Assembly: GCF_003386095.1 (NCBI RefSeq)
Contig: NZ_QREG01000025.1
Location: 1-64,000, forward strand
Length of the DNA: 64,000 nucleotides
Source of the DNA: Marinoscillum furvescens DSM 4134
GTDB lineage: Bacteria; Bacteroidota; Bacteroidia; Cytophagales; Cyclobacteriaceae
Direction of reading: 5' to 3'
Position 1 is the first letter of the stretch, and every line of letters starts with the position of its first letter. A program made the translations under genes and the position numbers. Below the pieces are notes generated by a model, which worked only from the letters and a program-made list of their open reading frames with translations, was not told the DNA's origin and ran no database searches. Positions 12,835 to 60,130 of the stretch are shown here, one piece after another.

Positions 12835-12837
12835 ATG

Positions 12838-12851
12838 TCGATTCAAATCGA
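12838..12851 (-). promoter_or_regulatory. Small dyad just upstream of the giant gene's ATG
   Basis: TCGATT and AATCGA form perfect 6-base arms around a 2-base centre, ending four bases before the ATG at 12834. It could be a protein-binding site or a weak RNA hairpin over the ribosome-binding region. Short dyads occur by chance, so this is tentative. Confidence 0.25.
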
Positions 12852-12973
12852 AAAAGTTAGTGATCAAACTTGCCGTAAAGATACGAGCTTTTCATGCAGA
12901 TAGAATTTATCATCAAGTTCTTTCCAACATGATAATCAGTAATTTAATCGAAAAAAATCTACCTTTTGTCCTA

Positions 12974-28309: not shown

Positions 28310-28318
28310 GGGTTCGGA

Positions 28319-44067: not shown

Positions 44068-44116
44068 GGGGGCTTGTTTTGTTACAAGGCTACTGGCTTT
44101 TTGACTAAAAGCCAAT

Positions 44117-44148
44117 AAAAAAGCACTGCCCTCAGTAGAGAGCAGTGC
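44117..44148 (-). terminator. Terminator of the MFS gene
   Basis: GCACTGC (44123-44129) pairs with GCAGTGC (44142-44148); on the minus strand a run of six Ts follows (44117-44122). It lies 25 bases past the transporter's stop. Confidence 0.75.
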
Positions 44149-44173
44149 CCAAAATATTCAACGGGTATATGGT

Positions 44174-45391: not shown

Positions 45392-45545
45392 GTGTTCAAA
45401 TAAGGTTAGGGCGGTCAAGTAAATAAATCGCCATATGAATATCAAAACTCTAGATTAATAAAATTGTAAAAACATGTCATCTGCAAACGATTCCGCAGTA
45501 GTAAACTTTGAATTTCGTAGCTAATCTTGATAGATTTCCAATCTT

Positions 45546-45563
45546 TTTGGCCAGTAGGCCAAA
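45546..45563. promoter_or_regulatory. Dyad upstream of the sugar-oxidation locus
   Basis: TTTGGCC and GGCCAAA form perfect 7-base arms with a 4-base centre, 42 bases before the first gene (ATG 45605) and in the divergent region shared with the MFS gene. It could be the operator of the locus. No regulator gene lies nearby. Confidence 0.35.
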
Positions 45564-45604
45564 TTTCATTTTATCGAATCAAAACCAGAAAACACACCGA
45601 CTTC

Positions 45605-46741
45605 ATGAACAAAGGAAAAATCAAGCTTGGACTTATCGGCGGAGGGCCGAATTCATTTATAGGACCTGTACACCGAATAGCTGCCTATATGGGTGAGCGT
45701 TACGACCTGGTAGGTGGAGTGTTTGATATAGATTATGAGCAGAGTAAGGCATTCGCCGAAAAGCTGGAGCTGGATGCCAGTAGAGCGTATAAAGACCTGG
45801 ATGATTTTATTTCGGGAGAGCTTAGCCGTCCTGCAGACGAACGTATCGAAGCAGTAAGCATCCTCACTCCGAATTTTTTGCATTACCCAATGGCCAAACG
45901 ACTGGTAGGTGAAGGGTTTCATGTAATATGCGAAAAGCCTATAACCATGACAGCCGCTGAAGCGGTAGAGCTGGCGGAGCTCGTAGAGCAAAAAGGAGTG
46001 GTCTTTAGCCTTACACATACGTATACAGGTTACCCAATGGTACGCCAGATGAAAGCCATGATAGCTGCTGGAGCTTTAGGGAAAATCCACAAAATGGATG
46101 CGCAGTACTACCAGGGATGGATCAATCCTTTTATCCATGAAAAAGACAAGCGCGCCGGGGTGTGGAGGCTAGACCCTGCCAAGTCTGGTCAAAGCTGTTG
46201 CTTTGGAGATATAGGGGTGCATGCATTCAATCTTCTAGAATATACCACAGGTTTGACCATCAACAAAGTGCTTGCAGACATCAACACCCTCTATGAAGAT
46301 AATCCCCTGGATGTAGACGGTACAGCACTCGTACGTACCACCGATGGAGTACGAGGCATCGTGAGAGCTAGTCAGATTGCTACTGGGGAAGAAAACAACA
46401 TAGTGGTGACTGTATACGGAGACAAAGCAGGCCTGAGATGGGAGCAAGAAAATCCTACTTACCTGAAGTTTATGGAGGAGGGGAAACCAGCCCAGATCTT
46501 AAAGCCAGGCAACCCTTACCTCAGTGAGTTTTCACTGGAGAGCACTAAAATCGCTCCAGGCCACCCGGAAGGACTCTTCGATGCTATGGGCAATATCTAC
46601 AGCGGAACCGCTCAGGCTATCCGCAAAGAAAGTTATCGAGATGGAGCATTTCCTACAGTGCAAGACGGTGTGAGAGGGATGAATTTCATTGAGGCTGTAT
46701 TAGAGTCGAGTAAAAATGGTCAGGTCTGGGTTTCTATATAA
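45605..46741 (+). CDS. Gfo/Idh/MocA family oxidoreductase
   Basis: About 378 residues from ATG 45605; the frame extends to a TTG at 45527, across the dyad. It has the Rossmann loop KLGLIGGGPNSFIGPVHRIAA, the catalytic-region EKPITMTAAEAVELAELV with its conserved Lys, and GWINPF plus FGDIGVHAFNLLEY in the C-terminal sheet domain. Such enzymes oxidise or reduce sugar hydroxyls using NAD; in 3-keto-glycoside pathways they interconvert the 3-hydroxyl and 3-keto forms. First gene of the plus-strand locus; a close paralogue follows 48 bases later. Confidence 0.9.
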   Translation: MNKGKIKLGLIGGGPNSFIGPVHRIAAYMGERYDLVGGVFDIDYEQSKAFAEKLELDASRAYKDLDDFISGELSRPADERIEAVSILTPNFLHYPMAKRLVGEGFHVICEKPITMTAAEAVELAELVEQKGVVFSLTHTYTGYPMVRQMKAMIAAGALGKIHKMDAQYYQGWINPFIHEKDKRAGVWRLDPAKSGQSCCFGDIGVHAFNLLEYTTGLTINKVLADINTLYEDNPLDVDGTALVRTTDGVRGIVRASQIATGEENNIVVTVYGDKAGLRWEQENPTYLKFMEEGKPAQILKPGNPYLSEFSLESTKIAPGHPEGLFDAMGNIYSGTAQAIRKESYRDGAFPTVQDGVRGMNFIEAVLESSKNGQVWVSI

Positions 46742-46789
46742 CTTTTAGCTCAGAAAAAGATTCATTCATCATTTAAACAATTCCAACGT

Positions 46790-47956
46790 ATGCAACATCG
46801 AAAGCTTAGAATGGGTATGGTTGGCGGTGGTAGAGGCTCTTTTATCGGCGCTGTACACCGCATGGGGGCCAATCTTGACGGACAGATTGAACTGGTTTGT
46901 GGAGCTTTTAGCAGTGATCCGCAGCGATCTGTAAAGTCAGGCCATGACCTGTATTTACCAGAAAACCGATGCTATGCCACTTTTGAAGAAATGGTCCTGG
47001 AGGAGCAAAAGCTGCCAGAAGGTGAACGAATGGATTTTGTATCCATCGTAACGCCCAATCACATGCATTTTGCACCTGCAAAAGCTGCTTTAGAGGCTGG
47101 ATTTCCAGTGATTATTGATAAGCCACTGGCTTTCACTTTAGAAGAAGCTAGAGAATTAAAACGGATAGTATCTGACACCAGACTCCCATTTGCGGTCACC
47201 TATACTTATGCTGCTTACCCTATGGTCAAGCAAGCCCGAGCCATGGTCCTGAGCGGGGCTATTGGTAAAGTAAGAAAAATAATGGTGGAGTATCCACAGG
47301 GCTGGTTGGCAGAAAAACTGGAGGATACAGACTCCAAACAAGCATCATGGAGAGCAGACCCGAAGCGTGCAGGTATAAGCAACTGCTTTGGTGACATTGG
47401 TACTCATTTGGCCAATATGGCTGAGTATGTTTCAGGATTGAAAATTACTGAAGTGCTCGCTGAGCTCAACGCATTTGTGCCTGGGCGTACGCTAGACGAT
47501 GATGCCAATGTGCTTCTTAAGTTTGAAAAAGGTGCGAATGGCGTGCTGTCAGCCTCTCAAGTAGCTACTGGAGAAGAGAATGACATCAAAATCCGAATTT
47601 ACGGCGATAAAGGAGGGCTGGAATGGTCTAACCGCGATCTGAATACCTTACTGGTAAAGCCACATGGTGCACCCGTTCAGATCTATCGGGCAGGAGGCAA
47701 CAACCCGTATTTGCACGATGCGGCTTTAGCGCATATCCGTACTCCGGCAGGTCATCCGGAAGGCTATATAGAAGCTTTTGCAAATATTTATCGAAACTTC
47801 TCTTTTGATGTGAGGAGCCATTTGGGTGCTGCTTCAGAGAAAAGTTCCTTCATGGATTACCCAGGGATCAATGATGGCGTAAAAGGTATGGCCATGATTA
47901 AGGCTGTGGTGGAAAGCTCCGCCAATGGCAATGTGTGGACTCAGGTGGAATCCTAA
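46790..47956 (+). CDS. Gfo/Idh/MocA family oxidoreductase (paralogue)
   Basis: The 388-residue protein closely follows the preceding one: LRMGMVGGGRGSFIGAVHRMGANL, DKPLAFTLEEARELKRIV, ISNCFGDIGTHLANMAEYV and a shared GHPEGYIEAFANIY. Positions corresponding to the substrate loop differ (SWRADPKRAGISN), so the two probably act on different steps or sugars. Two such dehydrogenases in a row are a feature of Bacteroidota loci for 3-keto sugars. A TIM-barrel isomerase follows. Confidence 0.9.
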   Translation: MQHRKLRMGMVGGGRGSFIGAVHRMGANLDGQIELVCGAFSSDPQRSVKSGHDLYLPENRCYATFEEMVLEEQKLPEGERMDFVSIVTPNHMHFAPAKAALEAGFPVIIDKPLAFTLEEARELKRIVSDTRLPFAVTYTYAAYPMVKQARAMVLSGAIGKVRKIMVEYPQGWLAEKLEDTDSKQASWRADPKRAGISNCFGDIGTHLANMAEYVSGLKITEVLAELNAFVPGRTLDDDANVLLKFEKGANGVLSASQVATGEENDIKIRIYGDKGGLEWSNRDLNTLLVKPHGAPVQIYRAGGNNPYLHDAALAHIRTPAGHPEGYIEAFANIYRNFSFDVRSHLGAASEKSSFMDYPGINDGVKGMAMIKAVVESSANGNVWTQVES

Positions 47957-48031
47957 ACACTTTGACATCAAAGTATGAAATAGAGTTTGCCTCCGGCATC
48001 TTCATTTAAAACTTTAAAAAAAACTTACATT

Positions 48032-49084
48032 ATGAAAACCATTAAAGGGCCAGCAATATTTCTGGCGCAGTTTGCAGACGATACAGAACCATTTAACAAC
48101 CTTAAAAATATCTGCCAATGGGCAAAAGGTATTGGCTATAAAGGCGTACAAATACCTGCATGGGATACCCGGCTGATAGATGTCAAAAAAGCCGCTGAAA
48201 GTCAAACCTACGCTGATGAAATCAAAGGTATTGTCAATGAAGCAGGTCTTGAAATTACAGAGCTGGCTACTCACTTGCAGGGGCAACTGGTAGCGGTTCA
48301 CCCTGCCTATGATACCATGTTCGACTCTTTTGCGCCTGACGCATACAAAGGAAACCCCAAAGCCCGAACCGAATGGGCTGTGGATCAGGTAAAAAGTGCA
48401 GCTACTGCGAGTAAGAATCTGGGTATCAATGTGATGGCTAGCTTCTCGGGAGCGTTGCTGTGGCACACTGTTTATCCCTGGCCGCAGCGTCCTGCAGGTC
48501 TGGTGGAGACAGGCTTCAAAGAGCTTGCTAATCGGTGGATGCCTATTTTGGATCACGCCAAAGACAATGGCGTAGAGATATGCTATGAACTGCATCCGGG
48601 TGAAGACCTTCATGATGGGCTTACCTACGAGCGCTTTTGGGAGGCTACCGGCAAGCACGATTCGGCTAAGATCCTCTATGACCCATCGCACTTTGTATTG
48701 CAACAGCTCGACTACCTGCAGTTCATAGATTTTTACCATGAAAATATTCGCATGTTTCATGTTAAAGATGCCGAGTTTAACCCTACGGGAAAGGCAGGCG
48801 TTTATGGAGGATTTGAAAACTGGGTAGATCGTCCCGGTCGATTCCGTTCATTGGGTGATGGCCAGGTGGACTTTAGTGGTATTTTCAGCAAGCTCAGTCA
48901 GTATGGCTATGATGGATGGGCTGTACTTGAGTGGGAGTGCTGCATTAAGTCACCTCAGCAAGGAGCGGAAGAAGGTTCTGTATTCATTCAGGATCATATC
49001 ATAGAAGTGACCGAAAAGGCATTTGACGATTTTGCGGGAGCTGCTCCTGATGAAGCAATGAATCGCAAGATTTTGGGCTTGTAA
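48032..49084 (+). CDS. Sugar phosphate isomerase/epimerase, TIM barrel
   Basis: About 350 residues from ATG 48032 (MKTIKGPAIFLAQF); a TTG at 47987 also opens the frame. It shows the xylose-isomerase-like TIM barrel with metal ligands in CYELHPGEDLHDG, ILYDPSHFVLQQ, FHVKDAEF and a final AVLEWECCI. Family members epimerise or isomerise sugars and, in 3-keto-glucose pathways, act on the keto sugar. It lies between the oxidoreductases and the large fusion gene. Confidence 0.88.
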   Translation: MKTIKGPAIFLAQFADDTEPFNNLKNICQWAKGIGYKGVQIPAWDTRLIDVKKAAESQTYADEIKGIVNEAGLEITELATHLQGQLVAVHPAYDTMFDSFAPDAYKGNPKARTEWAVDQVKSAATASKNLGINVMASFSGALLWHTVYPWPQRPAGLVETGFKELANRWMPILDHAKDNGVEICYELHPGEDLHDGLTYERFWEATGKHDSAKILYDPSHFVLQQLDYLQFIDFYHENIRMFHVKDAEFNPTGKAGVYGGFENWVDRPGRFRSLGDGQVDFSGIFSKLSQYGYDGWAVLEWECCIKSPQQGAEEGSVFIQDHIIEVTEKAFDDFAGAAPDEAMNRKILGL

Positions 49085-49120
49085 GCCTGACAAAGTAAAG
49101 TATAGAAGTATAAAAGAAGT

Positions 49121-52100
49121 ATGAAGAAGTTAAATGTAATGATCACAATGCTCCTGGTATTTGCCTTAGGCTGCCAGGAGCCTCAGCAAAAGCCGGATAG
49201 ACCATTGAAAGCATGGGTGTTTCGGTCTGTTTTAGATGAAAAGCCCAGGATGGTGACTGCCGCACTGCATGATGATGTGTGGGTAGCGTATGATGCCCGA
49301 ACTGCCAGCTTGTACAAAGCATGGAAAGGTGGTGTGAATTTCGACGGAGCGGTATATACTACTGTACACGGGCCACAGCCAACGAGTAGCGGATATGCCT
49401 ACTATACAGACGCTGAAGAAAATGTAGAATGGTTTGTAGTTGAAGGTGGCAAAGTACTCACACCAGAAGTTCAGTACCGCGGGCACAGGTTTGAAAACAA
49501 TCGGGTGATATTTACTTATGAGCTGAAAGTTGGTGATCGGCGCATTGTGGTAGAGGAAAGCCCTGAGGCCATACGGCGAGGAAGCCAGAATGGTTTGGAG
49601 CGGAAATTTACCGTGCAAACGGCAGGTGAATTTCGCGTGGGACTTTATACTACCGTTTCTTCATTGATTAATGAGCGGGATTATAAGACTACTGGAGATT
49701 TTCAGGTTACGTCAGTGGATGTGGATGAATACCCTGGAGGAAGCCTTACGAATGTTTCGGGAATACTGACTCTAAATAGTGAAGGTGCTACTTTATTGAA
49801 GTCTTTTTTTCACGAAGGATTTGAAACTGCAGGAGAAAGCACTTCTTCTGATGAAAGTATGGAAATGCCGGGAGCGGCACTGATCGAGCGAAGTGACTGC
49901 AAGTCGTGTCACAATGCTGAAGTAAAAACTGTGGGGCCAGCCTATGTGTCAGTGGCGCGCAAGTACAGCGACTCTGAGGAGAGCGTAGATATGCTGGCCG
50001 GTAAGGTGATCAAAGGTGGTAGTGGTGTTTGGGGTGAAGCAGTGATGACGCCCCATCCAAACCTCGACGAGGAAGATGCCAAAGAAATGGTTCGCTACAT
50101 TCTTTCACTGGATGATGACGAAGAAAATGATGCGGAAGCCTGGCATGCAGGCACCAAAACCGTACCCCTGAAATTGAAAGATCAATTAAGAATCGCCAAG
50201 GAAACTCCAGGTGTGGCAGCCTATTTGTACCTCTATAGTGGTGATCAGCCCAACTTCGAAACCCTCAAAAAGGACGGTGCACCTATTCAGGGATCGGTTG
50301 TTTCACAGATTCATGTGCTCGAGGAATCCGACCTGGGTGAGCGTACACAGGATGTGGCCGTACTTTTCAAAGGCAATTTAAGAATTGATAAAACAGCTAG
50401 CTATAGCTTCCGAACCGTGTCCGATGACGGGTCCAGGCTGTTTATAGATGACCAAATGGTAGTAAACAACTGGGGGTTTCATGGAGCTGAACCCAAAGAT
50501 GGTGAAGTGTACCTCACTGCAGGAGATCACCCTTTCGAGCTGCACTACTTTCAGGGTGGGGGTGGCGGAGCCGTTTCCTTCCAGTGGTTTGATAAGCAAA
50601 CTGGCAGGTTCGAAGTGGTGCCTGAAGATATGATGTTTGTGACTAGCAAAGATTTCTTGCAAGTAGAGGCTTATGTAGATGAAGATAAGCTGGTAAAAGC
50701 AATCCCTGGAGATCAGCGCTGGTTGGCTGGCGTGCATCCGGCTTTTGATTTGTTTCAAGCCCGGCCAGATGATTTCAAACCTAGAGTAGGTGGTATCGAC
50801 TTTCTTTCTGCCGATGAGATGCTGGTGTGCACCTGGGATTCGCTGGGGCCAGTATATAAAGTCAGCAACTTTAGAGCCGAAAACCCTGATGATATTCAAG
50901 TGGAGCTGATCGCTACTGGCTTGGCTGAGCCGCTCGGTATCGAAGTAGTAGATGGAGAAATATACGTACTCCAAAAACAAGAACTCACCCATCTCAAAGA
51001 CAATGATGGCGATGGGATTATAGATGAGTACCGTACTGTTTCTGATGACTGGAAAGTATCCGCAAATTTCCATGAATTTGCCTTTGGGCTGGTGTACAAA
51101 GAGGGCTACTTCTATGGTGCGCTGGCTACAGCCATATTGCCTGGAGGGGCATCTGCCCAACCTCAGATAGAAGACCGGGGTAAGATTGTGAAAATATCCA
51201 AAGAAACAGGAGAGGTAGAATTTATCGCATCAGGCCTGCGTACTCCCAATGGTATAGGCATCGGTCCTGACGGAGAGATATTTGTAGCTGACAATCAAGG
51301 AGACTGGCTACCGGCATCTAAAATCAACCACGTACGCGAAGGGGCATGGTATGGTTCCAGGTCTGTAGATCCGGAAGGTACCCAGGGCATGGTGCAGGAC
51401 GAGCCAGTAGTTTGGCTTCCGCAAGATGATATTGGAAATTCTCCCAGTACTCCCGTATACCTCGATAAGGGCCCGTATGCCGGACAAATGATCCATTGTG
51501 AAGTTACACATGGTGGAATAAAGCGGGTGTTTGTTGAGCAGGTAGATGATATTTACCAGGGAGCTGTATTTCGTTTTTCACAAGGGTTGGAAGCAGGTAT
51601 CAATCGCCTTGCTTGGGCACCTGACGGCAGCCTTTTGGCTGGCGGTATAGGTGTTTCAGGTAACTGGGGACAAGTAGGTAAGCTCAATTACGGCCTGCAG
51701 CGACTGGTTTACAATGAGCAGTCTGTTTTCGAAATGTTGTCGGTAAGCGCCCGTTCCAATGGTTTTGAAGTAATCTTTACAGAGCCCATAGCAGCGGGTC
51801 AAAACATTAGTGCTGATGACTTTTATATTGAACGCTTTTATTTTGAACCTACAGCAGAGTACGGAGGCCCTAAACTGGATCAGACGGAATTAGAGCCTAC
51901 CAGTTTTCAACTTTCTGAGGATAGGAAAAAGATTTTCTTCGAACTGGATGGCTTGAAGGAAAAACATGTCGTTTATTTACGGATCAGAAGGCCTTTTGTG
52001 AGTGAATTACAACATGAGCTGTGGACGACTGAAGCCTGGTACACACTAACCAATATACCAGGGGATAAGCCAGGTTTTACTTCGGATTATACAGTACAGC

Positions 52101-52762
52101 ACAATACGCTTACCGATAATGAGCAACAGCAAGGATGGAAATTGTTGTTTGATGGGAAGTCTACTGGTAAGCTGCGTAATTTCAAATCTGAAGATTTGGG
52201 AAAGAAATGGTCAGCAAAAGACGGTACCTTGCATTTTGCTGGCAAGGGGTCTGGAGATGGCTGGCAGGCTGAGGATGGAGGTGATATCATCCTGACAGAT
52301 CGCCCCTATGAAAACTATGAGTTTTCAATAGATTGGAAAATTTCCCAAGGGGGAAATAGTGGTATCATTTACCATGTAGTAGAAAGTGAAGATTTCGATT
52401 ATGTATGGCAAAGTGGCCCCGAGTATCAGTTGCTAGACAATGCTCGTCATCCTGACGGACAAATAGAAAAGCATCGAGCCGGAGATCTTTACGACATGAT
52501 CGAGACGAAATTTGTGACGGTAAATCCTCCTGGAGAGTGGAACCGAACAAGAATAAAGATCAAAGACGGGCATGTAGAACACTGGCTCAATGGCTATAAA
52601 GTGGTGGAATATGATCTGGGTACTCCAGAGTTTCAGGCCATGGTAGCGGCGAGTAAGTTTTCTGAAATGCCAGGATTTGGTCAAGCCAAGGCAGGACACA
52701 TCGCATTGCAGGATCACGGCGATGAGGTGTGGTTTAGAAATATAAAAATTAGACCATTATAA
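49121..52762 (+). CDS. Multidomain lipoprotein: cytochrome c, PA14, beta-propeller and DUF1080 (3-keto-glycoside hydrolase)
   Basis: The 1213-residue protein has a lipobox (LGC, Cys18). After an N-terminal beta region it has a c-type cytochrome (about 250-335) with CKSCH (Cys260, Cys263, His264) and a likely Met309 ligand in VWGEAVM. A PA14-like domain follows (about 360-510; RTVSDDGSRLFID, FELHYFQGGGGG). Then comes a propeller like those of the glucose/sorbosone dehydrogenase and DUF7133 families (about 540-880; FASGLRTPNGIGIGPDGEIFVADNQGDW). The C-terminus (about 1004-1213) is a DUF1080 domain (GWKLLFDGKSTGKLRNF, NSGIIYHV). DUF1080 enzymes act on 3-keto glycosides. The fusion suggests oxidation coupled to cleavage at a membrane; order and function are inferred. 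It is one base from the next gene. Confidence 0.85.
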   Translation: MKKLNVMITMLLVFALGCQEPQQKPDRPLKAWVFRSVLDEKPRMVTAALHDDVWVAYDARTASLYKAWKGGVNFDGAVYTTVHGPQPTSSGYAYYTDAEENVEWFVVEGGKVLTPEVQYRGHRFENNRVIFTYELKVGDRRIVVEESPEAIRRGSQNGLERKFTVQTAGEFRVGLYTTVSSLINERDYKTTGDFQVTSVDVDEYPGGSLTNVSGILTLNSEGATLLKSFFHEGFETAGESTSSDESMEMPGAALIERSDCKSCHNAEVKTVGPAYVSVARKYSDSEESVDMLAGKVIKGGSGVWGEAVMTPHPNLDEEDAKEMVRYILSLDDDEENDAEAWHAGTKTVPLKLKDQLRIAKETPGVAAYLYLYSGDQPNFETLKKDGAPIQGSVVSQIHVLEESDLGERTQDVAVLFKGNLRIDKTASYSFRTVSDDGSRLFIDDQMVVNNWGFHGAEPKDGEVYLTAGDHPFELHYFQGGGGGAVSFQWFDKQTGRFEVVPEDMMFVTSKDFLQVEAYVDEDKLVKAIPGDQRWLAGVHPAFDLFQARPDDFKPRVGGIDFLSADEMLVCTWDSLGPVYKVSNFRAENPDDIQVELIATGLAEPLGIEVVDGEIYVLQKQELTHLKDNDGDGIIDEYRTVSDDWKVSANFHEFAFGLVYKEGYFYGALATAILPGGASAQPQIEDRGKIVKISKETGEVEFIASGLRTPNGIGIGPDGEIFVADNQGDWLPASKINHVREGAWYGSRSVDPEGTQGMVQDEPVVWLPQDDIGNSPSTPVYLDKGPYAGQMIHCEVTHGGIKRVFVEQVDDIYQGAVFRFSQGLEAGINRLAWAPDGSLLAGGIGVSGNWGQVGKLNYGLQRLVYNEQSVFEMLSVSARSNGFEVIFTEPIAAGQNISADDFYIERFYFEPTAEYGGPKLDQTELEPTSFQLSEDRKKIFFELDGLKEKHVVYLRIRRPFVSELQHELWTTEAWYTLTNIPGDKPGFTSDYTVQHNTLTDNEQQQGWKLLFDGKSTGKLRNFKSEDLGKKWSAKDGTLHFAGKGSGDGWQAEDGGDIILTDRPYENYEFSIDWKISQGGNSGIIYHVVESEDFDYVWQSGPEYQLLDNARHPDGQIEKHRAGDLYDMIETKFVTVNPPGEWNRTRIKIKDGHVEHWLNGYKVVEYDLGTPEFQAMVAASKFSEMPGFGQAKAGHIALQDHGDEVWFRNIKIRPL

Positions 52763-52763
52763 C

Positions 52764-55361
52764 GTGAGGAAAATTGTACTATTGGCCGTAGTGGCTATCA
52801 TTGGCGCATGCAGTGAGCATGCGCCATCAGATTCATCAGATTTAACACCACCTGAAGAAAGTAGATTCGTTCAGGAAATTTTTGAAACTAACCTTTATGA
52901 GCCCACAGAGTTGGTGGTGCTTCCAAAAGGAAACAAGATTTTGTTTACACAAAGGAGGGGACAGATTTTTGAGTATGACATTCCTTCTGAGCAGCTGAGG
53001 ATGTACGACTCTATCCCGGTGTTTTCCACCTTTGAGCATGGCCTCATGGGGATAGCACTAGACCCTGAATTCAAACAGAATAATTGGCTTTACATTTATT
53101 ATTCACCAGTGGGGGATGAGCCTGTGCAATACTTATCCAGGTTTACGTATTCGGCCTCTGGGTTGAAAAACGAAAAAGTTGTACTCGAAGTACCCGTACA
53201 GCGTGAAACATGCTGTCACACTGGTGGGTCTATAGAGTTTGGCCCTGATGGTTTGCTGTATCTTTCCACTGGAGATGATACCAACCCTTTTGCCTCTAAT
53301 GGTTTTTCTCCATCAGACGAACGACCGGGTCGTAAATCATGGGATGCCCAGCGGACCTCAAGTAATACCAATGATTTGAGAGGGAAAATCCTTCGGATAA
53401 AACCTGAGCCAGATGGATCTTACAGTATTCCTAAAGGCAACTTATTTGAAGACAATGATCCTCGTACACGGCCTGAGATCTATGTGATGGGCTGTAGAAA
53501 CCCATATAGAATTGGAATCGATTCAAAACGCGGCTGGTTGTTTTGGGGTGATGTGGGGCCTGATGCCCGAAATGATAAAGAGAACAGAGGTCCCAGGGGA
53601 CATGATGAATGGAATGTGGCAAAATCTCCTGGATATTATGGATGGCCGCTCTTCGTTGGCAAAAACTATGCATACAACAGGTACGATTTTGAAACGGGAG
53701 AGTCCTTTGCGAAGCATGATCCTAAAAAGCCGATCAATCAATCGGTAAATAATACTGGATTGCGCGAATTGCCTCCAGCCAGACCAGCTACTATTTATTA
53801 TCCATATGCTAAAACGGACATATTCCCGCAGGTTGGCAGTGGCGGTCGCAATGCTATGGCGGGTCCGGTGTACTACAGTGACCAATATCAGGGCCGAGAA
53901 AAGTTCCCAAAATTCTTTGATGGACGCGTGCCTTTCTTTGACTGGATGCGTGGGTTCGTTTTCTTTCTGGAGCTGGATGAAGAAGGCCAGCCTACAGACT
54001 GGTACCCTTTCATGCCCAATACCAAGTTCAATAACCTGATAGATATGGAATTTGGACCGGATGGTACGTTGTATCTTCTGGAATACGGAACAGGGTGGTT
54101 TTCACGCAATGAAAATGCTAAGCTATCACGTGTGCGTTATGTTGCAGGAAATAGACCTCCTGTGTTGGAAGCCTCTGCTTCGGTAACCAAAGGTACCTCG
54201 CCGCTCACGGTGGTGTTTGACGCATCCAAATCCTATGATTATGACGGTCACTCGTTGAAGTTTACCTGGGATTTTGATGGGGAGATTTTGAACGACTCAG
54301 TGGTAACCTACACTTTCGATGAGGACGGAGTTTACTATCCGGAATTGGTGGTTTCAGATCCTAAAGGCGGTAAGCGTTCACAGCAGTTTGTCATCGAAGT
54401 AGGAAATGAGCCCCCAGTTGTACAGATAGCCATTGATGGAAATGAAAGCTTTTTCTGGCCTGGACGAAACGTAACATACGAAGTGAAAGTATCTGATCTG
54501 GAAGACGAGCAGAATGGTGAGATAGATGAATCCAAAATTGCTTTTGAGATTTCCCACTTTCAATCTTCAGATCAGGCCGAAGCGCTCGGACACCAGGTGC
54601 CAGTAGCTGGAGGCTTGGAATTGATCAATTCTCTGGACTGTATGGGATGTCACAAGATTGACGGTCCTTCGATAGGTCCTTCTTACCAGCAAGTAGCAAA
54701 GCGTTATCAAAATGAGCAAAATGCTGTAAACTATCTGGCCCATAAAATCATCAATGGAGGTGGAGGAGTTTGGGGAGAGCAAGCAATGTCTGCCCATCCA
54801 GATCTGAGCAACGATGATGCGGAGAGTATAGTAAACTATATACTCTCACTGGCTCAGCCTAAAGGTGACCCTCTTGCAGGTACTTTTGTCACGGAAAAGG
54901 AGGAAGGCAGATATTTGTTTTCTGCAAGCTATGAGGATCAGGGTAAAGGATCACTTAAGCCTATTTTGGAGCGTAAGAATATTTGGCTCATGCCGTATAG
55001 TCTTCCAGGAGATGATTTTGACGATTCTAATGATATTCAGGCTCGAGGAGGACGTATCAATAGTATTTATCATGGTTCTTGGGTGAGCTATGAATCTGTA
55101 GATCTGACTGGAATCAAAGGGCTAAATCTTAAGCTAAATCGGGTGAGACCTGTAATAGTGGAAGTGAGAAGTGGTTCAGCTGAAGGTCAACTTTTAGGTA
55201 AGAATGAAATACAGGAAGGTGAAAACCCTGAGGAACTGACTATCAGTTTACAGGGAGCTACAGGCTTTCACAATGTATTTGTCGTCTTTAAAAAACCAGG
55301 TGTAAAAGATCAACTGATTCGAGTAAATAGAGTGGAGTTTTTACCTGAGTCTAACCAATAG
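52764..55361 (+). CDS. GSDH-type sugar dehydrogenase with PKD, cytochrome c and CBM6-like domains
   Basis: The 865-residue lipoprotein starts at GTG 52764 and has lipobox GAC (Cys16). Residues about 40-455 form the glucose/sorbosone dehydrogenase (PQQ-binding type) propeller: ELVVLPKGNKILFTQRRG, HGLMGIALDPEF, CCHTGGSIEFGPDGLLYLSTGDD and GRNAMAGPVYY. A PKD domain follows (about 460-545; KFTWDFDGE). A cytochrome c has CMGCH (Cys626, Cys629, His630) and Met675. A CBM6-like domain ends the protein (about 715-865). Electrons from sugar oxidation would pass to the attached heme. Its heme domain is closely similar to that of the preceding protein (GG-GVWGE-M-HP-L), so the pair probably works together. 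Confidence 0.87.
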   Translation: MRKIVLLAVVAIIGACSEHAPSDSSDLTPPEESRFVQEIFETNLYEPTELVVLPKGNKILFTQRRGQIFEYDIPSEQLRMYDSIPVFSTFEHGLMGIALDPEFKQNNWLYIYYSPVGDEPVQYLSRFTYSASGLKNEKVVLEVPVQRETCCHTGGSIEFGPDGLLYLSTGDDTNPFASNGFSPSDERPGRKSWDAQRTSSNTNDLRGKILRIKPEPDGSYSIPKGNLFEDNDPRTRPEIYVMGCRNPYRIGIDSKRGWLFWGDVGPDARNDKENRGPRGHDEWNVAKSPGYYGWPLFVGKNYAYNRYDFETGESFAKHDPKKPINQSVNNTGLRELPPARPATIYYPYAKTDIFPQVGSGGRNAMAGPVYYSDQYQGREKFPKFFDGRVPFFDWMRGFVFFLELDEEGQPTDWYPFMPNTKFNNLIDMEFGPDGTLYLLEYGTGWFSRNENAKLSRVRYVAGNRPPVLEASASVTKGTSPLTVVFDASKSYDYDGHSLKFTWDFDGEILNDSVVTYTFDEDGVYYPELVVSDPKGGKRSQQFVIEVGNEPPVVQIAIDGNESFFWPGRNVTYEVKVSDLEDEQNGEIDESKIAFEISHFQSSDQAEALGHQVPVAGGLELINSLDCMGCHKIDGPSIGPSYQQVAKRYQNEQNAVNYLAHKIINGGGGVWGEQAMSAHPDLSNDDAESIVNYILSLAQPKGDPLAGTFVTEKEEGRYLFSASYEDQGKGSLKPILERKNIWLMPYSLPGDDFDDSNDIQARGGRINSIYHGSWVSYESVDLTGIKGLNLKLNRVRPVIVEVRSGSAEGQLLGKNEIQEGENPEELTISLQGATGFHNVFVVFKKPGVKDQLIRVNRVEFLPESNQ

Positions 55362-55365
55362 CAAT

Positions 55366-56247
55366 ATGTATAAAGAAAGAAGAAAGTTTATCAAAACCAG
55401 TGCTGTAGCTTCGGCTGCAGTGCTGTTGATGCCATCGTGCGTAACGAAAACCGGTAAAGAAGCAGCTACTGCCGCTATAGCGGGTGAACAACCACAAATC
55501 GGGTTGGGACTTTATACGGTGAGAAACCAGATGGCACAGGACCCAAAAGGTACTTTGGAAAAAATAGCGGAAATTGGCTACAAGAAAATTGAGCCGTTTG
55601 GGTTTGATGGGGAAAAAGTCTTTGGCATGACAGCTAAAGAATTCAAACAGATTGCAGATGATCTTGGGCTACAAGTAGTCAGTGGTCACATAGATCCCTC
55701 GGTATTCCAAAATAAGTTTGAGGCCTCTCTTGATTTTTTTGCAGAAGTAGGGCAGCAATATGCTGTATGGCCTTACCAACCAGCCGACCAACGCTCGCTG
55801 GATGATTATAAAATGATCGCTGAGACCTTAAGTAGCTGTGCTGAACAAGCCAAAAAAGTAGGGGTAAATGTGTGCTATCACAATCATGACTTTGAGTATG
55901 AGCTGGTAGATGGGGAAGTGCCTCTGTATTTATTGAGAGACCAAACCGATAAGGCTGTTCAGTTTGAACTGGACCTCTACTGGGTCACCAAGGCAGGGAA
56001 AAAGCCTGTAGAGGAATTTAAAAAGTTTGATGGTAGAGTGCCGCTTTGGCATGTGAAAGACATGGCGAATACAGAGCAGCGTGGATTTGCCGAAGTGGGC
56101 GAAGGAATCATAGATTACAAAGAAGTGTTTGCGAACAAAGAGCTCTCAGGTATGAAGCACTTCTTTGTAGAACAGGACCAATCTGCAGACCCTATGAAGA
56201 GCATTGAAATTTCTTTTAAAAACTTAACAGAAAAGATACTAGCGTAA
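55366..56247 (+). CDS. Exported sugar isomerase/epimerase, TIM barrel
   Basis: The 293-residue protein begins with a Tat-type lipoprotein leader (MYKERRKFIKTSAVASAAVLLMPSC). The TIM barrel has IGLGLYTVRNQM, metal ligands in VCYHNHDFEYE, FELDLYWVTKAG, PLWHVKDMANTEQ and a final FFVEQDQSADPM. Export of this normally cytoplasmic fold to the periplasm is a known feature of 3-keto-glycoside gene sets. It lies 4 bases after the dehydrogenase gene and abuts the TonB-receptor gene with no gap. Confidence 0.87.
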   Translation: MYKERRKFIKTSAVASAAVLLMPSCVTKTGKEAATAAIAGEQPQIGLGLYTVRNQMAQDPKGTLEKIAEIGYKKIEPFGFDGEKVFGMTAKEFKQIADDLGLQVVSGHIDPSVFQNKFEASLDFFAEVGQQYAVWPYQPADQRSLDDYKMIAETLSSCAEQAKKVGVNVCYHNHDFEYELVDGEVPLYLLRDQTDKAVQFELDLYWVTKAGKKPVEEFKKFDGRVPLWHVKDMANTEQRGFAEVGEGIIDYKEVFANKELSGMKHFFVEQDQSADPMKSIEISFKNLTEKILA

Positions 56248-58407
56248 ATGAAGTACATGATGGGGATGGTGCTATTGCTGAGCACCACGTGGTTGAGCGC
56301 GCAAAAAATAACTGGACGAGTGGTGGATGAGGTAAGCCTGGAGGGCTTGCCTGGAGCTACCGTGCAAGTGATCGATGGAGAGGCCGGTGCCGTCACTGAC
56401 GAATCCGGGTTTTTTGATTTGGAGGTAAATGAACCAGGACGCTACACGCTGCAGGTATCCTATGTGGGGTATCAGATGAGGCAAGTGACAGAAGTGTGGG
56501 TACGCTCTGGTAAGTCTACCTGGCAAGATATATCCCTACAGCGAACTTATCTGAATGCTGTGATGGTAACTGACAGTAGAAATTACGAAACACCAGGAAG
56601 CATTCAGATTACAGAAGAGCAAATCAATCGTTTTGCGGCTACTTATTACGACCCGGCCCGTCTTGTGACCAGTTCGCCAGATGTTGCCGTAGCGAATGAT
56701 CAAAACAATCAAGTGTCTATTCGTGGCTTGTCACCAGACTACAACGTCTGGAGGCTAGAGGGTGTGGAAGTGGTAAACCCCAACCACCTGGCCAATGCGG
56801 GGACGTTTTTGGATCGTCCATCGGCTACCGGAGGTGGGGTAAATATGCTGAGCGCCCAGATGCTGAGCCAATCGAGCTTACAGTATGGAGCTTTTGGTGT
56901 AGGTTATGGCAATAGTTTAGCAGGAGTGTTTGACATGACACTGAAAAATGGTGCTTCGGATCAGCGAAAGTACACCGCTCAGGCTTCACTGATTGGATTG
57001 GACTTTGCCACGGAAGGTCCCTTCAAAGAAGGCGGAAGGGCGACCTATGCAGCGAATTATCGCTATTCCTTTACCGGACTACTTACCAGCTTTGGAGTGG
57101 ATTTTGGAGGTGAGTCTATAGGCTTTCAAGACCTGGCAATGTCTATCTCACTTCCAGTAGGCAAACGCACGAACCTGAAGATTTTTGGTGTAGGAGGTTT
57201 GAGCTTCAATAATTTCGACCATAGAACCTTTGAGGAGTCTGAGGAGCAAAAGGACAGAAGTGATATCTATTACGAAAACAAAACAGGTATCGTAGGGGCC
57301 TCTTTGAACACTACACTGGCACATAGTAGTTTGAATACATCACTTGCTGTTTCGGGGTATAGCACAGAGCGAGACCAGTTTTTTTACAATGAAAACGACG
57401 AACAGGAAGGAGCCCTACTTTATGCAAACGAACAACGTATCATAAGTTTGAACAGCGAATACCAGCGCTATCTGGGTGGAGCAGTTTGGAAGTTGGGAGT
57501 CCAGGCCAATAGTTATTTGTGGAACCCCAATATTACTGACGAAGCACTGGAAGTGTTGGAGGTTTCTCAATACCTGGTACGACCCTATACCGAGCTGGAG
57601 GCGCCCCTGGCTAAGCGTACGCGTCTTACTGCGGGGGTGAGCTTTACAGGTAGCAACGAAGGGCAAACGGTGGATTACCGCGTCTTTGTTAAACAATTGT
57701 TGGGCGATAGGCAAAGCATGTACGTGGGTGGAGGACAATACAGTCAGCTCTTAAACCCTAATAATTCCATAGCCAACAACCCATTTGGTTTTCAGCTTTG
57801 GAAAAACAACTATGACCTTCAGCGGAGTTATCGTTTGATGCTGGGACATTCGTGGACTGGTTCTTTGGTACAAATACAATCCGAGCTGTTTGCCTATCAG
57901 GTGCCAGACATAAACGAAAATAGCGCACTGTACAGCTATGGCTTATCAGTACATGCAGACCGTAAAATAGCGTCGGGCCTGTATTACCGTGTTGGAGGTA
58001 GTGTTTTTGAGTCAGGGTTTACAGAGTCTGAAGAAGAGCTTCATACTGATACCGGTTTCAACCTGAGTGCATCTGCAGGTAAAGAGTGGAATACTTCCAA
58101 AAAAGGAAAGAATAAGCGGTTTTCAGTAGATGTTCGCGGAATGATGCAGGGTGGGCAACATTACCCGGAAATCGGCAGTAGCTCCATGGTAAATTACTAC
58201 CAGGTGGGTACATATGTGCGGGCAGATGTTCGATTGGTATGGACACGCTTTCACGAAAACCGAACCTCCTCTATAGCATTGGATTTGCAAAATGCTGCTG
58301 GAATCAAAAACGAGGCATATCGTTATTATGATAGTTTTACAGGCCAGGAAGAAACGAAATATCAACTCGGACTCATTCCAATTCTTGCCTATCGGGTGGA
58401 GTGGTAG
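56248..58407 (+). CDS. TonB-dependent outer membrane receptor
   Basis: The 719-residue protein has a signal peptide ending in SAQ, a carboxypeptidase-D-like regulatory domain (about 20-105; GRVVDEVSLEGLPGATVQVIDG), a plug (about 120-215) and a beta barrel ending in the aromatic residue Trp. It would import a sugar or siderophore using TonB energy. No SusD partner follows, unlike typical polysaccharide loci. It begins directly after the stop codon of the isomerase gene and is the last gene of the plus-strand locus. Confidence 0.87.
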   Translation: MKYMMGMVLLLSTTWLSAQKITGRVVDEVSLEGLPGATVQVIDGEAGAVTDESGFFDLEVNEPGRYTLQVSYVGYQMRQVTEVWVRSGKSTWQDISLQRTYLNAVMVTDSRNYETPGSIQITEEQINRFAATYYDPARLVTSSPDVAVANDQNNQVSIRGLSPDYNVWRLEGVEVVNPNHLANAGTFLDRPSATGGGVNMLSAQMLSQSSLQYGAFGVGYGNSLAGVFDMTLKNGASDQRKYTAQASLIGLDFATEGPFKEGGRATYAANYRYSFTGLLTSFGVDFGGESIGFQDLAMSISLPVGKRTNLKIFGVGGLSFNNFDHRTFEESEEQKDRSDIYYENKTGIVGASLNTTLAHSSLNTSLAVSGYSTERDQFFYNENDEQEGALLYANEQRIISLNSEYQRYLGGAVWKLGVQANSYLWNPNITDEALEVLEVSQYLVRPYTELEAPLAKRTRLTAGVSFTGSNEGQTVDYRVFVKQLLGDRQSMYVGGGQYSQLLNPNNSIANNPFGFQLWKNNYDLQRSYRLMLGHSWTGSLVQIQSELFAYQVPDINENSALYSYGLSVHADRKIASGLYYRVGGSVFESGFTESEEELHTDTGFNLSASAGKEWNTSKKGKNKRFSVDVRGMMQGGQHYPEIGSSSMVNYYQVGTYVRADVRLVWTRFHENRTSSIALDLQNAAGIKNEAYRYYDSFTGQEETKYQLGLIPILAYRVEW

Positions 58408-58427
58408 ACTGCAATAGATACGCATTG

Positions 58428-58460
58428 AAAGCCCATCAGATATTATTTCTGATGGGCTTT
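58428..58460. terminator. Terminator between the TonB receptor and DinB genes
   Basis: Perfect 13-base arms (58428-58440 and 58448-58460) with a 7-base loop; a T run follows on the plus strand. It can serve the convergent transcripts on both sides. Confidence 0.85.
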
Positions 58461-58480
58461 TTCAATTCTATCTCATGTCC

Positions 58481-59005
58481 CTAAGTATTTAGAATGCGAA
58501 GGTACTGTTTCCAGGGGCCTACTTTATGCTGGTATTGTGATGCCATTACTCTAGCAATTTGACCGATGTGATTAAGGTCATGTGTGACCCAGGTAGCCAG
58601 GAGCTCACCTGCAGTTACTCTTCCCAGCTCTGGATGAATTCCTGTTTTCTTTAAATCTTCGGCAGAAAGGTTTTTTGATTTTAAAATGCTCACGTTTGCC
58701 AAACGCAGTTCTTTAAACTCACTCAGAAGTGTGTTGATTGATTTGTTTTTGCTTTTCTCAAATTGTGCAAACCGGTCAAAAGGATCAAATGGTTGTGATT
58801 CACCCTGGTCCATAATGATCTCCAACCGTGGAATCCAGTCTGTTTCTTCTCCATGGATAAGGTGGCCTAGAATATCAAACGGACTCCAGGTGTCAGGCCC
58901 TTCATTTGGGTGTGTCCAGTTGTCGCTAAGCCCTTTCAACAACCCTTCCAAAGTGTCTGGCGTTCGTTTCAGTAGCTCTATACCATGTGATAAGTCATCG
59001 TTCAT
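58481..59005 (-). CDS. DinB family protein
   Basis: The 174-residue protein shows the four-helix DinB fold: IELLKRTPDTLEGLLKGLSDNW, WSPFDILGHLIHGEETDWIPRLEII with a metal-binding His, and TWVTHDLNHIGQIARVMASQY with two further His ligands. DinB proteins are metal-dependent thiol transferases or of unknown function. It lies 12 bases after the secreted oxidoreductase gene on the same strand, so they may share a transcript. Confidence 0.9.
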   Translation of the reverse strand: MNDDLSHGIELLKRTPDTLEGLLKGLSDNWTHPNEGPDTWSPFDILGHLIHGEETDWIPRLEIIMDQGESQPFDPFDRFAQFEKSKNKSINTLLSEFKELRLANVSILKSKNLSAEDLKKTGIHPELGRVTAGELLATWVTHDLNHIGQIARVMASQYQHKVGPWKQYLRILNT

Positions 59006-59017
59006 ATTTAATAGAGG

Positions 59018-60130
59018 TCAATGGTCTTGAGTTAAAGATATTGTCTTTTTCGATTCAATACTTGCTTTGGCGGCCTCTAATATTTCCATTACGATGAGGT
59101 TGTTTTCTAAAGCAGAAAGGTCTGCCGGAGACAGCTGATGGGTTCCCCGCACTATAGCCGCCAACAACGCAAAAGGATCATGGAAAGGTGCTGGTCGCTC
59201 CGGGAGATCCCATACGGTCTCCTCATAGCCATCATATCCTTCACTCATGTGTAGTTTCAACGTATTTCTATCTTTGGCAAATAGTACACCAGTCTCTCCA
59301 TAGATTTCCATGTCCTTTCTACCTATCGGCCAGTTCCATGAGGGCTCGATGATGGCCCCACATGATGCGTAAGTAAGCAAAATCGTGGCATCATCTTCTA
59401 CATCGGGATTGTTTTCGGGCTGTAGTTGCTGGGCTACGGCGGTGACAGTGAGCGGTCGCTCTCCACTCATCAGCCAGGTCATTAGATTGGCGCCATAGCA
59501 ACCAAAATCCATCAGTGCGCCACCGCCGTTGTGCTTAGGATCTGTTAGCCATTCCAAAAACTCCTCGTTTACTCCGATTTTCTTCGGACCTTTATGTCCA
59601 TCACGCACGATTATTTTTCTGATTTCTCCTATTTGATCAGCCTCGACAAGATCCCGGGCTTTGTGATTGGAGGGGTACCATGTAGTCTCATAGTTCGTAA
59701 GGAGGTGAATGTCATGGTCAAGTGCCAGTTTGGCCATTTTTTGTGCATGGTCCATTGATACAGCCAGAGGTTTTTCTACCATCACATGAATGCCAAGAGG
59801 AGCGCAGGTTTGTACTACTTCCAAGTGTTCGTAAATAGTGCCAAAGGCGGTTACGGCTTCCGGTTTTGTTTTTTGGATCATTTCTTCCAAGGACGGGTAA
59901 ACCAAATCCATGGATAGTCCGTGTTGTTTTATGTATCGTGTGGCAAGCTCCAGGTTTGGCTCGGCTATGCCTACGATTTCTATGTCATCTGCGGGTGCTC
60001 TGCCTAGCAGCCAGTGTACATGGGTGTGGGTCAAGCCTGCAATTCCAATTTTTAATGGCTGCTGTTTTGTGGGTTGGCTTTGTGACATGCTGCTTAGTGT
60101 GAGGCAAATTAGTGCAATAAATAACTTCAT
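59018..60130 (-). CDS. Secreted Gfo/Idh/MocA family oxidoreductase
   Basis: The 370-residue protein has a signal peptide (MKLFIALICLTLSSMSQSQ) before the Rossmann loop KIGIAGLTHTHVHWLLGR. It shows EKPLAVSMDHAQKMAKLA, LTNYETTWYPSNHKARDLV and GGGALMDFGCYGANLMTWL. It is the third enzyme of this family in the block, and the only one with an export signal. Periplasmic oxidoreductases of this type carry a tightly bound cofactor; that is inferred here. It is followed by the DinB gene. Confidence 0.88.
   Translation of the reverse strand: MKLFIALICLTLSSMSQSQPTKQQPLKIGIAGLTHTHVHWLLGRAPADDIEIVGIAEPNLELATRYIKQHGLSMDLVYPSLEEMIQKTKPEAVTAFGTIYEHLEVVQTCAPLGIHVMVEKPLAVSMDHAQKMAKLALDHDIHLLTNYETTWYPSNHKARDLVEADQIGEIRKIIVRDGHKGPKKIGVNEEFLEWLTDPKHNGGGALMDFGCYGANLMTWLMSGERPLTVTAVAQQLQPENNPDVEDDATILLTYASCGAIIEPSWNWPIGRKDMEIYGETGVLFAKDRNTLKLHMSEGYDGYEETVWDLPERPAPFHDPFALLAAIVRGTHQLSPADLSALENNLIVMEILEAAKASIESKKTISLTQDH

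Follow-up and report, generated by a model that had tools for sequence, protein, structure and literature searches.

A locus in the genome of Marinoscillum furvescens DSM 4134 appears, on balance, to encode a pathway for glycoside cleavage that spans two compartments and runs through oxidation, elimination, hydration and reduction, in which the propeller domain of a large heme protein, BIG, would oxidize the sugar at C3. This one protein seems to replace the usual separate sugar dehydrogenase, cytochrome and bond-splitting enzyme. What is new relative to known pathways is its fusion of all-beta, cytochrome c, PA14, propeller and DUF1080 domains. The locus lies within the window that we analyzed, the 64,000 nucleotides at positions 1–64,000 of contig NZ_QREG01000025.1 (assembly GCF_003386095.1); gene content, conservation, folds, retained residues and co-occurrence were all computed.

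Gene content of the locus

The open reading frames and Pfam domains bear out a run of seven plus-strand genes (45605–58407) with the small gaps of 0–75 bases named in the original prediction; from GfoA to the receptor, these gaps are 48, 75, 36, 1, 4 and 0 bases. The run opens with two cytoplasmic Gfo/Idh/MocA proteins, GfoA (45605–46741; PF01408/PF22725) and GfoB (46790–47956; PF22725/PF01408), candidate reductases of a 3-keto-sugar and of 3-keto-glucose, respectively. Both have 3v5n as their best solved relative (366.8 bits for GfoB), and they are probably final reductases of 3-keto-glucose rather than oxidants. The cytoplasmic TIM barrel TIM1 (48032–49084) matches 8ro4, titled "2-hydroxy-3-keto-glucal hydratase", over its full length with 566.5 bits and, at E 1e-5, is the sole match that the genome contains; as close kin of 8ro4, it is a predicted hydratase of the same kind. 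BIG (49121–52762) follows, and then GSDH (52764–55361; PF07995, 122 bits), a lipoprotein-like candidate for an accessory or alternative sugar oxidase composed of an sGDH-like propeller, a PKD domain, a cytochrome c (CMGCH, residues 626–630) and a CBM6 domain. GSDH is related to 2ism, 3a9g and 1c9u and contains the His152 and Arg245-Asn246 motifs. With one CxxCH motif each, BIG and GSDH correspond to the two heme-bearing dehydrogenase-like proteins anticipated for the locus.

The second TIM barrel, TIM2 (55366–56247), resembles a Tat-signal lipoprotein (its TAT_signal match is weak, at 17.7 bits and below the cut-off of that model). When aligned with AtOGE (8bvk), TIM2 keeps five active-site residues, with H172, H174, D203, H229 and E269 taking the places of His132, His134, Asp163, His189 and Glu233. 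In AtOGE, as presented in PMC10628242, His134 is catalytic, His132, Asp163 and His189 are metal ligands, and Glu233 is a weak ligand. By these residues, TIM2 is a predicted periplasmic 3-keto-glycoside beta-eliminase with the AtOGE active site. That TIM1, TIM2 and the DUF1080 domain all match solved enzymes of 3-keto-glycoside chemistry supports the assignment of the locus to that chemistry.

The run ends with a TonB-dependent receptor (56248–58407) with Plug and CarboxypepD_reg domains. Pfam found no SusD domain among the genes scanned, leaving the receptor without a SusD partner, and we dropped a Sus-type PUL as a description of the locus for this reason. A SusC/SusD pair is present at one other BIG locus (L055). 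Classical glycosidases are missing, as predicted, from the ten genes scanned with Pfam (42709–59005). Upstream lies a divergent MFS carrier on the minus strand (44174–45445; PF07690, 81.6 bits), a candidate importer of a 3-keto-sugar or sugar. Downstream, a DinB gene (58481–59005) stands between the receptor and a third Gfo gene, GfoC, on the minus strand (59018–60130), whose product has a signal-like N terminus. The term "extracellular", originally applied to the locus, is too strong; periplasm and cytoplasm are likelier, because, judged by eye, BIG and GSDH start like lipoproteins and TIM2 like a Tat lipoprotein, while GfoA, GfoB and TIM1 have no signal peptide.

Domains and folds of BIG

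BIG is a lipoprotein-like single chain of 1213 residues in which an N-terminal all-beta domain is followed by a cytochrome c (CKSCH at 260–264, with Met309), a PA14 domain (381–501), a propeller (about 516–985) and a DUF1080 domain (1005–1211). The DUF1080 enzyme of the original prediction is real, but it is the C-terminal domain of BIG, the first of the two heme proteins, and has no gene of its own. From Pfam, structural models, fold search and conservation, we predict BIG to be a fused glycoside oxidase and 3-keto-glycoside eliminase/hydratase. For the N-terminal domain, the best fold-search matches were PA14/cytochrome proteins or poor overlaps.

The DUF1080 domain scores 156.9 bits against PF06439 (3-keto-disaccharide hydrolase; cut-off 26.8). 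Fold search pairs it with 8rr2 and 9fbe, described as "3-keto-glycoside eliminase/hydratase", and with 8tda and 8v31, whose PDB titles name 3-keto-2-hydroxy-glucal hydratases. Residue conservation was counted over 45 chosen BIG sequences, and E1101, Q1103, H1110, H1118, K1179, Q1197, D1198 and H1199 are invariant in all 45; the domain keeps its conserved polar residues, in a set defined by conservation and not by a published catalytic list, and so does not present the refuting case of the original prediction, a domain stripped of its residues. A tree of DUF1080 domains groups 13 from BIG with 12 stand-alone operonic ones (SH-aLRT 97), and this group holds none of the genome's own nine DUF1080 paralogues.

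The propeller model (pLDDT 92, pTM 0.91) matches the PQQ sugar dehydrogenases 2ism, 3a9g, 1qbi and 3das in Foldseek, with the best figures for 2ism (E 5.9e-12, TMt 0.72); sialidase and GH43 propellers also match, with similar E-values and lower TM-scores. Several His, Arg, Lys and Trp residues of the propeller, H651 and R707 among them, do not vary across the 45 sequences, and the spacing of its His motif is that of the sGDH-like motif. Of the searches, the fold search was the one that found sugar dehydrogenases. PF07995 gave no match to BIG at E 0.01, and the propellers of BIG and GSDH show no profile kinship (hhalign probability 4%). A profile search of the PDB with the alignment of full-length BIG returned DUF1080, cytochrome, PA14 and designed "Pizza" propeller structures, with no sugar dehydrogenase among the matches listed (60 of 61). 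No pqqE match rose above the cut-off in any of 20 genomes with BIG, in a panel that had no positive control. To our knowledge, the characterized PQQ enzymes of this propeller fold oxidize C1 or C2, not C3, and we know of no C3-oxidizing member.

Conservation of the neighborhood and the missing GMC gene

Among 397 related stretches, the best 80 each yielded a near-full-length relative of BIG, and TIM1 shares the stretch at 21 of the 83 BIG loci examined, so the arrangement is more than chance. At the other 62, TIM1 lies outside the fetched stretch, many stretches being short; even among the 21 with TIM1, nine extend less than 5 kb on one side. The locus genes form a conserved neighborhood at part of the BIG loci. 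Relatives over most of the length were found for GfoB (24 in BIG loci), the MFS carrier (15 loci), GSDH (8 of 83) and GfoA (six loci), MFS or Nuc_H_symport carriers occur at 32 of 83, and relatives of the TonB receptor occur at 13 of the 21 loci with TIM1. Both flanking genes of the original prediction, the carrier and the third Gfo gene, are in place, but only the carrier is often conserved. GfoC, on the opposite strand, was the best match of no gene in the 83 BIG loci and is therefore left outside the conserved set; DinB, the best match in one BIG locus only, was also rejected as a member.

TIM1 is present in all 20 BIG genomes tested (four from the class sample and 16 picked, out of the 80 loci, mostly as named isolates), compared with 29 of 295 genomes of the class. 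On the TIM1 tree, the BIG label needs eight changes, only one of which is forced by well-supported branches. Of the 29 related loci lacking BIG, 19 have a gene for a GMC flavo-dehydrogenase near TIM1, compared with none of the 22 that contain BIG, in raw counts that ignore kinship; "lacking" here means not in the stretch, and four of the 29 (L155, L158, L164 and L168) come from three genomes with BIG elsewhere. At 16 of the 19 GMC loci, there is also a small CxxCH protein (120–157 residues), which best matches the cytochrome region of BIG in 15 cases (40–58% identity) and that of GSDH in one. Given these GMC genes and small cytochromes, heme-linked oxidation alone is not unusual; the unusual features are the fused chain and the lack of a GMC gene.

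In M. furvescens, Pfam detects neither GMC nor Gluconate_2-dh3 among the locus genes. The nearest GMC gene (28319–30025) lies about 15.6 kb from GfoA and the nearest Gluconate_2-dh3 gene at 27689–28309; together they are the one pair within the window (27689–30025) of two in the genome. Since GMC genes persist in this genome and occur somewhere in 19 of the 20 BIG genomes, we rejected replacement of GMC by BIG genome-wide.

A serious rival, which we nevertheless regard as unlikely, is that one or both GMC and Gluconate_2-dh3 pairs oxidize C3 in trans, with BIG serving as a substrate-binding eliminase/hydratase and electron carrier whose propeller is structural or oxidizes something else. Besides the wide occurrence of GMC in BIG genomes, both of the organism's own GMC proteins group in a tree among those of TIM1 loci, and the BIG cytochrome is related to the small CxxCH proteins found at GMC loci and could therefore accept electrons from a GMC enzyme. 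The 20 BIG genomes contain 22 TIM1 places, 12 of which, besides loci already counted, are annotated without BIG in the stretch; at two of these 12, in Paraglaciecola genomes (G304 and G307) that carry BIG elsewhere, GMC and Gluconate_2-dh3 genes adjoin TIM1. Against oxidation in trans stand the lack of any GMC gene near TIM1 at BIG loci, the fact that neither of the two pairs adjoins pathway genes, and the invariant propeller residues. So does one of the 20 BIG genomes (G302), which has BIG, TIM1, Gfo and MFS genes but no match to GMC or Gluconate_2-dh3.

An improbable alternative is that the propeller gains energy by converting released aldoses to lactones through oxidation at C1, and that the 3-keto sugars on which DUF1080 acts come from other cells or enzymes, so that BIG would tether two activities of a single sugar-scavenging site. 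It draws on the dehydrogenases that best match the propeller, which act on aldoses or glucose, and on the lack of a known C3-oxidizing member of the fold. However, the absence of GMC from the neighborhood and the presence of TIM1 in every BIG genome tested point to a part for BIG in the 3-keto route.

Known pathways and the proposed route

In the LacABC system, LacA is the GMC subunit, LacB the cytochrome c and LacC the Gluconate_2-dh3 subunit. Together with DUF1080, LacABC serves a lactose route in Caulobacter crescentus, Pedobacter and Indibacter, as outlined in PMC9007349. The M. furvescens locus shares the monoheme cytochrome c and DUF1080 with this system, but as domains of BIG alongside a PQQ-dehydrogenase-like propeller, and GMC and Gluconate_2-dh3 genes are absent from the locus. 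The Agrobacterium tumefaciens operon is presented as GlycDH-AtOGE-AtHYD-Gfo (PMC10628242). TIM2 with its AtOGE active site, TIM1 as a near relative of the hydratase 8ro4 and a presumed Gfo reductase all recall that operon, whereas the missing flavo-dehydrogenase, the exported appearance of TIM2 and the presence of DUF1080 set the M. furvescens locus apart. The levoglucosan pathway LgdA-LgdB1-LgdB2-LgdC, as described in PMC7676230, likewise consists of oxidation, elimination, hydration and reduction steps; its enzymes carry sugar isomerase and Gfo oxidoreductase annotations, and its oxidant is an NAD-dependent levoglucosan dehydrogenase. In M. furvescens, by contrast, the proposed oxidants are heme proteins outside the cytoplasm.

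The locus also resembles the Bacteroides BT2156–BT2160 type, considered together with the hydratases 8tda and 8v31, in its DUF1080 eliminase/hydratase fold, TIM barrel relatives and Gfo proteins; in that type, oxidation is NAD-linked, and neither heme nor a propeller is known to take part. It is very improbable that the Gfo enzymes here oxidize glycosides with NAD in the cytoplasm, as NCBIfam names imply for the BT2158/BT2159 type, with the heme proteins as unrelated sugar oxidases that share the operon by chance. In favor of this is Gfo family similarity, including weak matches of GfoA to the NCBIfam models for glycoside 3-dehydrogenase and disaccharide 3-dehydrogenase (34.9 and 18.0 bits; cut-offs 750 and 650). 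Against it, the fusion of DUF1080 to a heme protein and the exported appearance of TIM2 place the expected 3-keto substrate outside the cytoplasm, a Gfo gene adjoins TIM1 in GMC loci too, and PMC10628242 presents the Agrobacterium Gfo protein as a 3-keto-glucose reductase. Of the original suggestion of respiratory oxidation, what stands is that the heme proteins could pass electrons to respiration; Gfo proteins are less likely as oxidants.

Among heme proteins, BIG falls far short of the cut-off for TIGR02604 (PVC-type heme-binding CxxCH), with 28.8 and 30.8 bits compared with 122.2. It shares this domain and a cytochrome c with the PVC-type proteins but has PA14 and DUF1080 in place of HEAT repeats. 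By description only, BIG can be likened to Lac161_ORF7, for which PMC5342196 describes glucose release from lactose, based on a glucose-oxidase read-out with protein from E. coli.

In the two-compartment pathway that we favor, every reaction, the C3 position, the propeller cofactor, the Gfo direction, the localization and the transport steps are predictions. The TonB receptor would bring glycosides into the periplasm, where the BIG propeller, and perhaps GSDH, would oxidize the sugar at C3 and pass electrons through BIG's own cytochrome c to respiration. Next, loss of the aglycone from the 3-keto-glycoside by elimination and hydration of the product would fall to BIG's DUF1080 domain and exported TIM2. 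Either 3-keto-glucose or 2-hydroxy-3-keto-glucal would enter through the carrier, cytoplasmic TIM1 would hydrate the glucal, and GfoB/GfoA would use NAD(P)H to convert 3-keto-glucose to glucose by reduction. We infer C3 oxidation by BIG from the fold, the fusion, the co-occurrence and the missing GMC gene. More tentatively, BIG may be a single-chain respiratory glycoside oxidase-eliminase. Its quinoprotein-like propeller would oxidize intact glycosides at C3, with the electrons going to the cytochrome c and the 3-keto product to the DUF1080 domain of the same chain, and BIG would be an independently recruited substitute for the flavo-cytochrome LacABC system, present in many Bacteroidota and some Gammaproteobacteria.

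Cleavage through 3-keto-glycosides is a recently recognized alternative to classical glycosidases. If our proposal is correct, one protein would couple glycoside cleavage directly to respiration, C3 oxidation would be carried out by a second, unrelated enzyme fold, and a heme protein family named by domain alone would gain a testable function; BIG might then also serve as a single-enzyme tool for oxidizing C3 regioselectively.

Layout of the locus and predicted location of its products

The original prediction of a plus-strand run with tiny gaps holds: seven real genes occupy 45605-58407 (+), separated by 48, 75, 36, 1, 4 and 0 bases. By Pfam, they encode two Gfo/Idh/MocA proteins (GfoA, 45605-46741; GfoB, 46790-47956), a xylose-isomerase-like TIM barrel (TIM1, 48032-49084), a 1213-aa heme protein that we call BIG (49121-52762), an 865-aa protein with GSDH, PKD, cytochrome c and CBM6 domains (the GSDH protein, 52764-55361), a second xylose-isomerase-like TIM barrel (TIM2, 55366-56247) and a TonB receptor (56248-58407), all on the plus strand. 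A divergent MFS gene lies upstream, and a DinB gene and a third Gfo gene, the latter with a signal-like N terminus, lie downstream on the minus strand. The predicted DUF1080 enzyme is present as the C-terminal domain of BIG (residues 1005-1211) rather than as a protein of its own. Pfam also places a cytochrome c domain at residues 251-330 and a PA14 domain at 381-501 of BIG, with weak DUF7133/NHL propeller signals.

Inspected by eye, the N termini of BIG and the GSDH protein are lipoprotein-like and that of TIM2 is Tat-lipoprotein-like, its Pfam TAT_signal match being below the cut-off; no signal is visible at those of GfoA, GfoB and TIM1. The TonB receptor is without a SusD partner and could import a small glycoside or, at a guess, PQQ. 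An esterase is predicted at 42709-44115 (minus strand), next to the carrier; it bears a type IX secretion tail, and a relative with 43% identity likewise adjoins the carrier in one Marinoscillum MAG (L038). Elsewhere in the window, the product of 1087-12867 (-), at 3926 aa, combines a GH115 C-terminal-like domain and PKD with a type IX secretion tail.

The two TIM barrels match enzymes of the 3-keto-glycoside route, whose four-step chemistry is described in PMC10628242 and PMC7676230. TIM1 aligns along its whole length with 8ro4 (566.5 bits), an entry titled 2-hydroxy-3-keto-glucal hydratase, and TIM2 matches 8tcd, 8tcs, 8tct and the O-glycoside eliminase AtOGE (8bvk). In AtOGE, according to PMC10628242, the metal is bound by His132, Asp163, His189 and, weakly, Glu233, with His134 as the catalytic base; H172, D203, H229 and E269 of TIM2 align with these ligands and H174 with the base. 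We conclude that this is, with little doubt, a genuine 3-keto-glycoside locus.

Architecture and conserved residues of BIG

The AlphaFold model of BIG residues 516-1213 is confident (pLDDT 92.2, pTM 0.91). In fold searches, the DUF1080 domain of this model hits 8rr2 and 9fbe (by title, 3-keto-glycoside eliminase/hydratase) as well as 8tda and 8v31 (by title, 3-keto-2-hydroxy-glucal hydratase). The propeller matches the PQQ sugar dehydrogenases 2ism, 3a9g, 1qbi, 3das and 6jt5; sialidase and GH43-type propellers also match with similar E-values and lower TM-scores. The model of residues 24-515 (pLDDT 85.9, pTM 0.47) comprises a long all-beta N-domain, to which the fold search gave no identity, a cytochrome c552-like domain and a PA14 domain resembling solved sugar-binding PA14s.

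Over 45 BIG sequences, the invariant residues include C260, C263, H264 and M309 in the cytochrome, K619, H651, Y665, R707, K801, R802 and W849 in the propeller, and E1101, Q1103, H1110, H1118, K1179, Q1197, D1198 and H1199 in the DUF1080 domain. The H651-Y665 segment is spaced like the sGDH-like motif of 2ism and of the GSDH protein of the locus, in which His is followed by Gly at +11 and Tyr at +14; the histidine of this motif is the catalytic one in sGDH. The Pfam scan gives no PF07995 match to BIG, and profile comparison finds no kinship between its propeller and that of the GSDH protein, so that the link to dehydrogenases rests on fold and motif spacing.

A limited literature search found no published description of a DUF1080-cytochrome-propeller fusion. 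The verrucomicrobial Lac161_ORF7, which combines a TIGR02604 domain, HEAT repeats and cytochrome c, is reported in PMC5342196 to release glucose from lactose, read out with glucose oxidase on protein produced in E. coli, and is termed there a new beta-galactosidase family. BIG scores only 28.8 bits against TIGR02604 (cut-off 122.2) and carries PA14 and DUF1080 rather than HEAT repeats, and we treat that report as a lead rather than as proof.

The Marinoscillum furvescens genome holds 19 DUF1080 matches, 18 above the cut-off. Four of its DUF1080 proteins (L179-L183; 448-461 aa) have tandem double domains, and on contigs C1 and C27 (L184 and L186) further proteins, sharing 30-35% identity with BIG in its propeller and N-terminal/cytochrome parts, lie close to DUF1080 matches, as shorter or split relatives of the BIG design.

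Gene neighborhoods of BIG and TIM1

BIG occurs at full or near-full length in four of 295 genomes of the class, this one included, with one copy cut by a contig end. A scan of GTDB species genomes yielded 397 BIG-related stretches, of which the best 80 all match most of BIG; these come from many Bacteroidota (Marinoscillum, Fulvivirga, Saprospiraceae and others) and also from Gammaproteobacteria (Gilvimarinus, Paraglaciecola, Aliiglaciecola). Together with three loci from the class genomes, they form the 83 annotated BIG loci. TIM1 lies within the same stretch in 21 of these, accompanied by a Gfo gene in 20, a carrier in 15, TIM2 in 13, a TonB receptor in 13 and a GSDH protein in 6; in the other 62 the fetched stretch shows no TIM1, several of these stretches being short. 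All 20 BIG genomes tested, including Gammaproteobacteria, carry TIM1. Marinoscillum pacificum (L037) has MFS, GfoA, GfoB, TIM1, BIG, GSDH, TIM2 and receptor genes in the same order as the window, and L038 has an extra carrier gene. A locus nearly matching that of Marinoscillum stands in a record labeled as a Rickettsiales MAG (L036), which is likely mislabeled or misbinned. Five loci (L047, L053, L057, L099, L107) show additional partial matches of ~220 residues close to full-length BIG, probably stand-alone DUF1080 copies.

TIM1 itself was found in 29 of the 295 class genomes, in 30 places, and we annotated 29 of these (leaving out the window's own) for ~9 kb per side where the contig allowed. 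A GMC gene lies near TIM1 in 19, together with Gluconate_2-dh3 in 17, a small CxxCH protein in 16 and a stand-alone DUF1080 protein in 14. The Lac subunits are of the GMC, cytochrome c and Gluconate_2-dh3 families. The GMC-TIM1 loci resemble the LacABC plus DUF1080 set described in PMC9007349. Four of the 10 places without GMC belong to three genomes with BIG elsewhere.

Proposed oxidation by the BIG propeller, or in trans

GMC occurs at none of the 22 TIM1 loci whose stretch includes BIG, against 19 of the 29 others (Fisher p 6e-7, uncorrected for kinship, with 9 of the 21 fetched TIM1-BIG stretches reaching less than 5 kb on one side). The small CxxCH proteins of GMC loci best match the BIG cytochrome region in 15 of 16 cases, at 40-58% identity, and the cytochrome region of the GSDH protein in one. 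In the DUF1080 tree, 13 BIG and 12 stand-alone operonic rows form one set (SH-aLRT 97), with own-genome paralogues, three of 16 BIG rows and four of 16 operonic rows outside it. The cytochrome and DUF1080 protein of the usual cluster thus occur fused in BIG and, with the usual dehydrogenase absent, the dehydrogenase-like propeller stands in its place, making the BIG propeller the likely oxidant. In the record of Gilvimarinus xylanilyticus (G302), BIG, TIM1, GfoB and MFS are all present, and neither GMC nor Gluconate_2-dh3 has a match.

C3 oxidation could instead be carried out in trans by a GMC protein encoded outside the locus. The genome has two GMC plus Gluconate_2-dh3 pairs, one of them in the window at 27689-30025 (-), ~15.6 kb from GfoA, where it adjoins an SDR and a GHMP kinase gene among unrelated neighbors; both GMC proteins fall among those of TIM1 loci in a tree. 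GMC is present somewhere in 19 of the 20 BIG genomes, so its exclusion by BIG is true of loci, not of genomes, and at TIM1 loci of BIG genomes with BIG elsewhere the pair adjoins TIM1 in two of 12, both Paraglaciecola. Known oxidations by enzymes of the PQQ sugar dehydrogenase propeller fold are at C1 or C2. In a panel without a positive control, pqqE was above the cut-off in none of the 20 BIG and none of the 14 control genomes, with weaker matches in all; a quinoprotein would accordingly need external PQQ.

In Parachryseolinea (L195, genome G301) and in G001 (L167), TIM1 stretches without GMC hold a GSDH-cytochrome protein (1104 or 1009 aa), in the latter in place of GMC, and this second propeller type may therefore be a further oxidant. 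For BIG itself, we lean toward a fused enzyme that would both oxidize C3 and split the bond, an unproven reading that is the best explanation of the locus.
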